IMG/VR virus record: IMGVR_UViG_3300030104_006983
Coordinates: 1 to 28,723 of that record
DNA length: 28,723 bases
Source: a virus
Reading direction: 5' to 3' (one strand)
This document shows, piece by piece, positions 17,281 to 28,186 of the stretch. The notes under the pieces were generated by a model that was given only the letters and a program-made list of their open reading frames with translations, was not told where the DNA came from and made no database searches. Numbering within the stretch: the stretch's first letter is position 1; each line of letters opens with the position of its first letter. The position numbers and the translations under genes were made by a program.

Positions 17281-17352
17281 AGCGGGTGGGTGGAATTGCA
17301 CCCCTTCTTTGACTTGGAATAGCCAACGCATTACTCTTTATGCTTCACCCGC
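17281..17352 (-). tRNA. Degenerate tRNA-Gly (anticodon TCC) or tRNA-like element
   Basis: The minus strand starts GCGGGTG and ends CACCCGC-T, a perfect 7-bp acceptor stem with the U discriminator usual for tRNA-Gly. GCAT/ATGC makes a 4-bp D stem, and TTGGC/GTCAA an anticodon stem around TATTCCAA, giving anticodon TCC followed by AA as in tRNA-Gly. Departures from normal: an 8-nt anticodon loop, a D loop without GG, and a T arm that only pairs well (GGGTG/CACCC) if it borrows one base from the acceptor stem. No CCA is encoded. The 5' end overlaps the last codons of the Mom-like gene. It may be a decaying tRNA, a non-standard functional one or a structural mimic. Confidence 0.55.
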
Positions 17353-18015
17353 AGTTTTTCTTCTTTGTTTTAATGTTATTTTTTCTCCCTTATACATTCC
17401 AGCGCCTAGTTTATCAATATCAGTAAAAGGAATATTTTCGCAATTCAATTTTGCCTTTTTATCTATTAAGTAAATATAACGATTTTGAAATCCTTTGAGT
17501 GCTTTTGCTCCTTGAAAATCATACTTTGAATCTCCTCTTTTCGCAACAACTTCTCCATTTGCAAGTTTATAAATCGTTCCGTTTTTATTTATTTGAGTCA
17601 ATTTGAATCCGCTTGCTCGATATATTGTTCCGTCTCCACATTGAGTTCCATCCGAATAACTCAAAATCCATTTTACTTGTGGTGCATTTTTTTTAATTAA
17701 TTTAATTGAAATCGCGATACATCTACTTTCGGAATATTTTGGAAGATAATCATCGAAGGCCATTCGATTCAATTCCAGCATTTCGTTCCACTTTTTATTG
17801 ATTCCAATATTTTCCGTATCAACTAAATTGATTACGTTCCTTTTATCCATCGGAGGCCCGTAAGACATAACTCCGTGCAATTTATTATCCAAAAAACATC
17901 CGAAGTGAAGATTTGAAAGATTCACAACTTTTCCGGAATAATGATATTTTTTTACAAATTCATTTGCAACATCCGATTTTATTATTTTGAGAATTATTTC
18001 TTTTGCTCTTCCCAT
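17338..18015 (-). CDS. Mom-like DNA modification protein (GNAT-type fold)
   Basis: A 225-residue protein. NEFVKKYHYSGKVVNLSNLHFGCFLDNKLHGVMSYGPP (18-55), ELNRMAFDDYLPKYSESRCIAISIKLIKK and WILSYSDGTQCGDGTIYRASGFKLTQ follow the pattern of phage proteins related to Mu Mom, which carry an acetyltransferase-like fold and alter adenines so that host restriction enzymes cannot cut. The stretch from HFGCFL to SYGPP would be the core beta sheet, and SYSDG..CGDGTIYRASGF is the family's later strand-loop-helix. It overlaps the ParB-like gene by 22 nt, a pairing I recall in other phages. The chemical activity cannot be read from sequence. The last five codons overlap the tRNA-like element. Confidence 0.6.
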   Translation of the reverse strand: MGRAKEIILKIIKSDVANEFVKKYHYSGKVVNLSNLHFGCFLDNKLHGVMSYGPPMDKRNVINLVDTENIGINKKWNEMLELNRMAFDDYLPKYSESRCIAISIKLIKKNAPQVKWILSYSDGTQCGDGTIYRASGFKLTQINKNGTIYKLANGEVVAKRGDSKYDFQGAKALKGFQNRYIYLIDKKAKLNCENIPFTDIDKLGAGMYKGEKITLKQRRKTAGEA

Positions 18016-25267: not shown

Positions 25268-25567
25268 TTAAAATTGAAGAATGATAAAAGATTCTTTTCC
25301 AAATCGAATAACTTGAGTATTCTCTTCAATGGATTCCATCGTTGGAAAATCTTCTTCGTCATAATCTTGGTGGAATCCTTCAAGATTTTCATACTCCGTA
25401 TATTCGCAGCAAATTGCAATCGGGTCAAATTCAATTGAGTCTCCCGTTGAATCTTCGTAATCTTCGAAGTATTCAAATAATGCAGTTAATCCGGAGTAAG
25501 AGAAATTGTCAGGTCGATTATTCTCGAACCATTGCCTAAATTGGTAAATTGAGATGGTAGTTTTCAT
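25268..25567 (-). CDS. Acidic conserved hypothetical phage protein
   Basis: A 99-residue, very acidic protein. KTTISIYQFRQWFENN, FSYSGLTALFEYFEDYEDSTGDSIEFDPIAICCEYTEYENLEGFHQDY and the final TQVIRFGKESFIILQF match a small protein that I recall in many phages and plasmids of Firmicutes and Bacteroidota (F.DAF......FSY..L..LF.YLE..E..TG..IE.DVIALCC.Y.EY). Its activity is unknown. Strong negative charge would suit DNA mimicry, which is only a guess. It has its own promoter of the phage early family at 25602-25636. Confidence 0.65.
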   Translation of the reverse strand: MKTTISIYQFRQWFENNRPDNFSYSGLTALFEYFEDYEDSTGDSIEFDPIAICCEYTEYENLEGFHQDYDEEDFPTMESIEENTQVIRFGKESFIILQF

Positions 25568-25601: not shown

Positions 25602-25636
25602 CAAAAGTAATGTAAATTACTCAAAATCACGAACTT
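25602..25636 (-). promoter_or_regulatory. Early promoter D (AAGTTCGT-N19-TACTTTTG)
   Basis: On the minus strand AAGTTCGT (25636-25629) is followed by exactly 19 nt and TACTTTTG (25609-25602). The same box and spacing occur at three more sites. It drives the 99-residue acidic protein and probably the small genes after it. The -33 box overlaps the stop of the preceding gene. Confidence 0.75.
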
Positions 25637-26060: not shown

Positions 26061-26095
26061 CAAATATAATGTTAAAAAACGAGTTCTACGAACTT
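26061..26095 (-). promoter_or_regulatory. Early promoter C (AAGTTCGT-N19-TATATTTG)
   Basis: AAGTTCGT at 26095-26088, a 19-nt spacer and TATATTTG at 26068-26061 on the minus strand. Downstream of the first box it shares GAACTCGTT-like text with promoter A (GGACTCGTT). It lies in the 78-nt gap between two early genes. Confidence 0.8.
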
Positions 26096-26346: not shown

Positions 26347-26631
26347 TTATTTAGTTATTTCGCTCCAAGTTTCTTTTTCATCTTGAGTCAAAATTGATTC
26401 GTATTTTTTGGATGGAATTCCTTCGAATTCATTTATCAAATTTTCAAGTTCCAATTCTGAAAGATTGTAAAGTGAAGTATTTTCTCTTATTGGAGTGCGA
26501 GTTTCAATGTATGTGCTTCCTCCATCTCCATCGTTCCAAATTTTTACTCCTTCTTGATTCGTTGTGCATTCATATCCACATCCTCTTCGAGTTTCGAAAT
26601 ATCGAACTTTTGTTACTTTTAGATTTGTCAT
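26347..26631 (-). CDS. Hypothetical early protein with GDGG motif
   Basis: A 94-residue protein. KVTKVRYFETRRGCGYECTTNQEGVKIWNDGDGGSTYIETRTP (5-47) is a beta-type region with a distinct W-N-D-G-D-G-G-x-T-Y motif, which I recall in small proteins of Bacteroidota phages. A helix-rich end follows (YNLSELELENLINEFEGI). The function is unknown. It is the first gene after promoter B and may lead the early operon. The leader holds a possible 11-codon upstream frame (MQLPRKIKIAN, ATG near 26687) and a TTCCTAGGAA palindrome. Confidence 0.5.
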   Translation of the reverse strand: MTNLKVTKVRYFETRRGCGYECTTNQEGVKIWNDGDGGSTYIETRTPIRENTSLYNLSELELENLINEFEGIPSKKYESILTQDEKETWSEITK

Positions 26632-26707
26632 TTTTATTTAGTTTTCGTTAATCAATTTGCAATCTTTATTTTCCTAGGAAGTTGCATTTTTCCCGTTTTG
26701 ATTTATT

Positions 26708-26742
26708 CAAATGTAATGTGATTTTTTGAGTTTAACGAACTT
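26708..26742 (-). promoter_or_regulatory. Early promoter B (AAGTTCGT-N19-TACATTTG)
   Basis: AAGTTCGT at 26742-26735, a 19-nt spacer and TACATTTG at 26715-26708 on the minus strand. It lies about 40 nt after the terminator of the structured RNA and about 75 nt before the ATG of the first early gene. The segment GTTCGTTAAACTC aligns with GTTCGTTGGACTC in promoter A. Confidence 0.85.
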
Positions 26743-26781
26743 TTGGATAAAATTCGGTCATCTGCTAGAGATTTAATGATA

Positions 26782-26804
26782 CAAAAAAAGGAGAAAATTC
26801 TCCT
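26782..26804 (-). terminator. Strong intrinsic terminator of the structured RNA
   Basis: AGGAGAA / TTCTCCT stem (26789-26804) followed directly by seven T residues on the minus strand (26789-26783). It has no gene upstream within 600 nt other than the RNA unit that begins at promoter A, so its evident purpose is to end that RNA. Confidence 0.88.
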
Positions 26805-27280
26805 CTTTTGCTATTATTGTAGAGGTCGCTGAATGGAATAGTCTTTCTCTATTTCTTGTTGGAATTGCAATTCCTCACATTCGATTCGACTTTTTCAGGG
26901 TCTCAATCCCGGAGATGAAATCGCGAGTTTCCTCTCCCTTACTACTACATCTTTGTTTCTTTAAAAAAAAGTCGGGCGGTGCTACTGAACTCGCTCTCTT
27001 GCGGAAGTTGGCTTTACGCTGATTTTTCTTCGCATCTTCACCCCAACTTTTTTGTTTTTTAAAAAAAGGGTTTTGTTTCTTCGTTTATGAACCATCCCTT
27101 GGATGATTGGAAGATTCTTCTGTTTTTTATCTTCTCCCTTTTTTTTGAATCTTCAGAGTGATTCGGTCTCTAGTCCTTTCAAAGAGGAGGGATGTCACCC
27201 GGTAGAATTGCTTTCCCTTTAGTTTTCGAATAGAAGGTTGCGTTCTGAAAGTTTCGATTTCGTCTCTTTTCCTCCCTTTG
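26782..27280 (-). ncRNA. Predicted structured non-coding RNA, about 500 nt
   Basis: Between promoter A and a strong terminator there is no convincing gene, yet many paired segments exist. In transcript order: GAAGATTC/GAATCTTC (27147-27154 with 27110-27117, 8 bp); AATCATCC-AAG-GGATGGTT (27108-27090, 8 bp with a G-U pair that exists only in minus-strand RNA); AAGTTGG/CCAACTT (27049-27043 with 27011-27005); a perfect 9-bp long-range stem CGACTTTTT/AAAAAGTCG (26974-26966 with 26895-26887) enclosing a stem-loop at 26937-26911 (GGAGA.GAAA/TTTC.TCTCC) and GGG/CCC at 26910-26898; and the 14-base palindrome GGAATTGCAATTCC (26861-26874). I do not recognise tmRNA, RNase P or a group I/II intron. The size recalls large ornate phage RNAs such as GOLLD or ROOL, without claiming homology. 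Confidence 0.6.
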
Positions 27281-27286
27281 ATGGTA

Positions 27287-27321
27287 CAAATGTAAAGTGA
27301 ATAAACGAGTCCAACGAACTT
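27287..27321 (-). promoter_or_regulatory. Early promoter A (AAGTTCGT-N19-TACATTTG), drives the ncRNA
   Basis: AAGTTCGT at 27321-27314, a 19-nt spacer and TACATTTG at 27294-27287 on the minus strand, matching promoters B, C and D in box and spacing and the Bacteroidota -7 consensus TAnnTTTG. Transcription should begin about 27280 and meet no clear start codon context before the terminator near 26782. Confidence 0.85.
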
Positions 27322-27353
27322 TTTTCAAGAAATCGTCAAAATATTTTATTTTA

Positions 27354-27420
27354 AGTCCTACGAAGAGTTTTTACTCTTATATGGACTCTACTATTAGAAA
27401 TGATATAAAATGCAGTAGAG
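27354..27420 (-). promoter_or_regulatory. Two competing hairpins after the phosphoesterase gene
   Basis: Two stems share bases 27386-27387. One is CTCTACT/AGTAGAG (27420-27414 with 27392-27386). The other is AGTCC/GGACT (27387-27383 with 27358-27354) extended by AAGAGT-AAAA-ACTCTT (27378-27363). They lie directly after the stop at 27437 and before promoter A. No long T run follows, so they may be a 3'-end structure or a switch rather than a simple terminator. Confidence 0.5.
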
Positions 27421-27436
27421 GGTGGTTAAAATGCAT

Positions 27437-28186
27437 TTACAAGGGCATCAGAAGGTTAATCGGTATTTTTCCATTGTTGAGAATCACCGCACATCCGACC
27501 GCTGGTTTTTTCCCATATTTCGCGTAAGCCATCGCGTAAGAATCGTGGTCAATCCCACATCCAACTTGAACTCCGAATATTCTGAATTTTTGGCCAACAA
27601 AATTTTGAACATAACATTGCGTATGAAGATGGCCTTGAACCGTATTCATTAAATCAGCGCGGCACTTGGTGGATGCAGTTCCTCCTTCTCCGTGAACATA
27701 CTGAACGTCATCCTTGACATATCTTTCTACAAAATTCCAAGTCGGTACTTCAAGAACTTCTTTGTATTCTTTTATCCATTTTGAAGGGATTGCAGATGTT
27801 TGCGCTTTTCTCATTATCAAGCGGTCGTGGTTTCCGATGATAACGGTTGCAACCGGAAACGCTTCAAACCATCTTGAAATCCTTCCAATTGCAACCTCCA
27901 ATTCATCCGCGCCTCCCATTCCATCCGCACTCGATTCGTGATAACTCGTAAAATGGTTATCGATTACGTCACCGATGAAAACGACTTCATTACAATTCCA
28001 CTTTTTATATTGAACAATACACCAATCAAGATATTTTTCAAGGCAAAATGGTTCGTGTAAATCACCAATTACTAAAACGTTTCGAGTTTCTTTTTTTCGC
28101 ATCTCTTCGATTGCGATAATCTCGTGCGGTTTTAATCGGTATCGATTGTGAGAATCTGGCTTTTTATTTTTTAGATATGTCCGCAA
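27437..28186 (-). CDS. Calcineurin-like metallophosphoesterase
   Basis: A 249-residue protein with TTG start at 28186, overlapping the holin-like gene by 23 nt. ATG at codon 29 is an alternative, but the residues before it (HNRYRLKPHEIIAIEEM) look conserved. The metal-binding motifs are complete: GDLH (41-44), GDVIDNH (72-78), GNHD (118-121), HGEGG (165-169) and GHLH (185-188). This is the two-metal phosphoesterase fold. Phage members hydrolyse nucleic acid or nucleotide phosphodiesters; the substrate cannot be told here. It ends the lysis-side block, just before the hairpins and the RNA gene. Confidence 0.85.
   Translation of the reverse strand: MRTYLKNKKPDSHNRYRLKPHEIIAIEEMRKKETRNVLVIGDLHEPFCLEKYLDWCIVQYKKWNCNEVVFIGDVIDNHFTSYHESSADGMGGADELEVAIGRISRWFEAFPVATVIIGNHDRLIMRKAQTSAIPSKWIKEYKEVLEVPTWNFVERYVKDDVQYVHGEGGTASTKCRADLMNTVQGHLHTQCYVQNFVGQKFRIFGVQVGCGIDHDSYAMAYAKYGKKPAVGCAVILNNGKIPINLLMPL

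Follow-up and report, generated by a model that had tools for sequence, protein, structure and literature searches.

The locus and its flanking signals

The window, meaning the whole stretch of 28,723 nt that was analysed (IMG/VR record IMGVR_UViG_3300030104_006983, positions 1 to 28,723), apparently stems from a small marine phage with a flavobacterial host. Its largest intergenic gap by far (26632-27436, 805 bp; the runner-up measures 185 bp) is bounded by a metallophosphoesterase gene (27437-28186) on one side and by a gene for 94 aa (26347-26631) on the other. The initial annotation of this DNA had reported a gap of about 800 bp without a usable start. The size was borne out, but a frame with an ATG start, 37 codons long, lies at 27095-26982; its counterpart in L003, the homologous contig described below, runs for 16 codons and then diverges, and because the frame is not kept there, sequence comparison suggests that it is probably not a gene.

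The candidate RNA spans about 500 nt of the minus strand, from 27283 to 26782/26783. The Bacteroidota-type promoter that had been proposed ahead of it was recovered as TACATTTG (TAnnTTTG; 27294-27287), with an upstream element, AAAGTTCGTTGGACTCG, at about 27306-27322, both being kept in L003. The upstream element AAAGTTCGT accompanies the promoters at 27294 and 26715 and occurs also at 26068 and, less well preserved, at 25609. At the far end, the hairpin AGGAGAAUUUUCUCCU with its U-run (26806-26783), likewise kept in L003, forms the annotated intrinsic terminator, although its strength was overstated, since it reaches about -8 kcal/mol with three G-C pairs and is therefore modest. A second TACATTTG promoter (26715-26708), which also has an equivalent in L003, serves the next gene (26631-26347). 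An additional U-tract stem at 27052-26963 could give rise to a shorter RNA form of about 320 nt. No tRNA gene was found in the window.

Further features of the window were recorded alongside. The same 17 bases, GAGAATCGAATTCTTTT, stand near both contig ends (1-17 and 28699-28715), and a Mom-like DNA modification protein is encoded at 17338-18015 on the minus strand (phrog_1384, E 5.6e-45). An acidic 99-aa early protein (25268-25567, minus strand; phrog_9974, function unassigned) carries the motif RPNNFS...EFDPIALCCEY and is shared with six further phages that have a leader (L003, L006, L019, L142, L146 and L076) and with some leaderless ones.

Evidence for a structured RNA from the homologue

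Among 2.9 million viral contigs of IMG/VR, which are often fragments and were searched with patterns that demand exact matches, a single homologue of the full RNA was found. This is L003, a 5.9-kb contig whose metallophosphoesterase shares 94% protein identity with that of the window in a scan with that protein. Nearly the whole 805 bp can be aligned at a DNA identity of 78-80%, and promoter, RNA, terminator and second promoter are all conserved. Codon-level conservation, which would speak against an RNA, was absent: substitutions are spread evenly over the three codon positions (41/37/35) and single-base gaps occur. The gene of about 500 letters thus probably yields RNA and not protein.

The evidence for structure is drawn from this comparison; the region of the window by itself does not fold with exceptional stability (z -1.42; 9 of 100 shuffles were equally stable). 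The alignment of window and L003 gave a consensus fold with z -5.31 on the minus strand, equalled by none of 200 column shuffles, and -3.35 on the reverse complement, and several helices are preserved in L003 through double changes. We regard the region 27283-26782 with high confidence as a real structured RNA. Compensatory changes and the matching architecture of L003 uphold the earlier proposal that a discrete non-coding RNA, structured and served by a promoter and terminator of its own, is encoded here; the RNA is a composite, not a monolithic one.

Searches for a known class were negative, in agreement with the initial annotation, which had recognised none. Neither the window nor any of 12 related loci reached the gathering score of an Rfam 15 covariance model, and relaxing the threshold to E<=5 gave only chance-level matches in the window. 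The region, the leader of L142 and the M3 region of L076 (the modules are defined below) had no related place by blastn among 50,697 phages, nor did an M3 region among plasmids. A CRISPR-repeat-like GGAUUGAGACC was noticed and set aside, a small hairpin accounting for the likeness.

Modules of the RNA and their recurrence in related phages

Sequence comparison indicates that the RNA is a modular composite whose 5' part corresponds to an early-transcript leader of related phages. This first module, M1, takes up the first 100-105 nt or so (27279-27180) and consists of a closing stem P1, an inner stem P2 and a hairpin P3 with the loop CGCAACC, followed by AACUAA, CAAUUCUA and GUGACA (27198-27193). 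It recurs in six phages, which brings the carriers to seven: the window, L003, L005, L006, L019, L142 and L146 (duplicate contigs being L005 = L139, L006 = L088 = L141 and L019 = L147). Across them three covarying helices surround the conserved rCGnAA, AACUAA, CAAUnYUA and GUGACA. P1 to P3 form pairs in nearly every carrier and, when the arms of these hand-aligned helices were permuted among the sequences, arrangements as good were met in 1/5040 (P1), 2/5040 (P2) and 24/5040 (P3) cases. All seven copies lie downstream of the metallophosphoesterase gene, a place where most relatives carry no insert. Six of the seven phages have a TAnnTTTG promoter there, L005 having the near-consensus TATCTTTA, and in the five phages in which the distance was measured P1 starts 6-11 nt past the promoter motif. 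Beyond the window and L003, M1 precedes a reading frame in the five other phages, where it would form the leader of an early mRNA. A pattern search of 84,980 genomes returned 17 matches, none of which showed the M1 architecture by eye and, apart from the copies already known, two other M1 patterns met with nothing above chance.

Two observations on the leaders of other phages may be added. An apparent H-type pseudoknot, seen by eye, follows M1 just before the first ATG in L005, L006, L019 and L146, with the pairs GAGG/CCUC or GAGU/ACUC plus a second stem. A different leader stands between early promoter and first gene in L060 (5850-6049) and L062 (5880-6077), where it has a strong terminator (about -12 kcal/mol) and is not followed by a second TAnnTTTG promoter ahead of the gene; in sequence it matches none of the other leaders.

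M1 is succeeded by M2 (27173-27147), comprising CUAGAGA and the hairpin GAAUC(ACUCUGAA)GAUUC, which is kept in L003; read by eye, the stem follows M1 in inverted form (GAUUC/GAAU) in L142 and L006. In the next domain (27145-27061) the helix AAAAAAAGGG/CCCUUUUUUU (27145-27136 with 27070-27061; GCAGGG/CCCUGC in L003) encloses the hairpin AAUCAUCC/GGAUGGUU at 27108-27090. This hairpin is compensated in L003 as AAUCAUUC/GAAUGAUU, through a G-U pair that is A-U in L003 and a double change from C-G to U-A, and hence supports the minus-strand transcript, as had been anticipated from its G-U pair. The central insert (27052-26963) is closed by the stem AAAAAGUUGGGGUG/CACCGCCCGACUUUUU, then a U-run, around an interior unrelated to that of L003. 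It is followed by the hairpins GGAGA/UCUCC (GGAAA/UUUCC in L003) and GGGAUUGAGACCC (26937-26897) and by a 3' domain (26896-26816) with the predicted helices GUCG/CGAC, GAAUG/CAUUC and GGAAU/AUUCC, the bases of which are invariant at 95% identity to L003. Patterns made from the 3' domain found L003 only in IMG/VR, apart from matches having just the pattern in common. The perfect 9-bp long-range stem emphasised in the initial annotation (26887-26895 with 26966-26974) is present in the window, yet L003 retains it only with bulges; in the competing stem, CGACUUUUU pairs upstream with AAAAAGUUGGG, and this alternative is compensated in L003 (GGUUCGA/UCGAACC). Of the stems that had been put forward, the comparison supports the hairpin at 27108-27090 and does not support the 9-bp stem.

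The central insert of L003 belongs to a second family, M3, with the core UAACCUAACC-n3-UUGGAAA and relatives in L076/L197, L194, L195, L198, L193 and L196. In a gap-free alignment of five sequences, 14 of 20 pairs show double changes and none of 500 shuffles was as good on every measure; the resulting model also finds L196 and L193. In L003 (as the insert), L076/L197, L195 and L198, M3 is found at the early promoter that follows a metallophosphoesterase-like gene, thereby heading early operons in three phages other than L003. Elsewhere it lies between terminase and structural genes (L193, L196) or upstream of small uncharacterised genes (L194). A weak, diverged second M3-like copy in tandem was seen in L193 (6226-6306, minus strand, 22 bits). 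The M3 model had no convincing match in the window and none in 397 Flavobacteriaceae genomes, a scan with strict filters and no known positive-control genome that weak copies could escape. As the aligned inserts of window and L003 share 49% identity against 73-95% for the other domains (73% for the leader), an exchange of the central domain is suggested, although stepwise loss and gain would produce the same pattern.

Candidate roles of the RNA

Certain phage RNAs offer points of comparison. The put RNA of phage HK022 works on the host RNA polymerase via the beta' zinc-binding domain, counteracting pauses and termination, and the GOLLD and ROOL RNAs are frequently encoded close to tRNA islands. 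GOLLD and ROOL are large structured non-coding phage RNAs, function unassigned (PMC12286853), and in this they resemble the present RNA, which differs by its lack of an Rfam match, by a window devoid of tRNA and by its composite build of about 500 nt on a leader module. The put RNA has about 70 nt in two stem-loops, putL lying just downstream of the early promoter PL (PMC9378689). Like putL and putR, M1 is a structured element with no coding role that would open an early phage transcript, and it too lies downstream of an early promoter. M1 nevertheless has about 100 nt in nested P1/P2/P3 helices, where put has two adjacent stem-loops, and belongs to a different host phylum. Phages with a leader show no clear excess of intrinsic terminators in their early regions (4/10, compared with 6/36 of the others, p 0.19), and the comparison is one of position, drawn together with the published description of put (PMC9378689). 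Flavobacterium phage 11b itself (L191, 7762-7930) has a promoter, a stretch of about 65 nt, a terminator, a second promoter and early genes behind its metallophosphoesterase gene; the stretch is much shorter and carries neither M1 nor M3 sequence.

The best explanation overall, held tentatively and with somewhat less than even confidence, is that a structured, non-coding RNA of about 500 nt is an early product of the phage, a cis-acting leader having turned into a free RNA. The RNA would be transcribed early from the TACATTTG promoter, and its 5' module would act in cis on the transcription complex, as HK022 put does on the host RNA polymerase, or shield the 5' end of the transcript. In the window and L003 this leader would have lost its reading frame and gained further domains and a terminator, setting the RNA free while the next gene uses its own promoter. 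Descent from a cis-acting leader is the part that we consider reasonably probable; a put-like mechanism, argued by analogy, is doubtful. The modules keep a fixed place where early transcripts begin and are followed by different genes, and therefore an effect on transcription or on the stability of the transcript is favoured over control of a single gene. Since the predicted transcript of the window and L003 ends without a gene, a free RNA is likely, and since several early genes of the window have promoters of their own, antitermination in cis is less needed.

That the RNA is a free, trans-acting early product, either a regulator or a decoy for some host machine or for a defence system, and only stabilised by its leader-like 5' part, is possible at a lower level of belief. 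The terminator, the separate promoter of the next gene in both phages and the stronger conservation of the 3' domain relative to the leader fit it, but in five phages M1 is not free-standing and a reading frame follows, and the longest antisense match to the phage's own genes (14 nt) lies within the range of shuffles (11-15). Rather unlikely is an attenuator or riboswitch-like leader in which a ligand or protein would set read-through into the early genes at the U-tract stem and the terminator at 26806. Two such U-tract stems do stand in tandem, in other phages the closing stem of M3 frequently runs into a U-run ahead of the first gene, and the strong conservation of the M3 core points to a putative binding site; against this, the downstream genes vary among phages and the window has a second promoter behind the terminator.

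A gene in decay, or untranslated filler whose stems arose by chance, would account for the unexceptional single-sequence fold and the 37-codon frame, and is nonetheless highly improbable in view of the compensated helices, the conserved blocks and the modules common to other phages. Scarcely credible is a packaging RNA of the phi29 pRNA type, which the small genome might invite, as the large terminase subunit encoded by the phage (15609-16925) is an ordinary one, the location is in the early region and Rfam returned no match. The initial annotation had named packaging and counter-defence among the conceivable roles, and nothing specific was found in favour of either. The preferred reading remains that of an early leader that became a free RNA.

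To our knowledge, little work exists on the takeover of early transcription by Bacteroidota phages. M1 and M3 represent two RNA element families absent from Rfam, which recur mainly at the first early promoter of distant relatives of Flavobacterium phage 11b, and the fact that two close relatives differ in the central domain suggests a division of the RNA into parts that act as separable units. As a speculative extension that we rate as improbable for now, flavobacterial phages may control the host RNA polymerase by means of RNA modules that need no protein, can replace one another and stand where early transcripts begin, an independent Bacteroidota counterpart of put in which some leaders would now be free-standing RNAs. 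The conserved cores of M1 and M3 invite a search for a possible binding partner.
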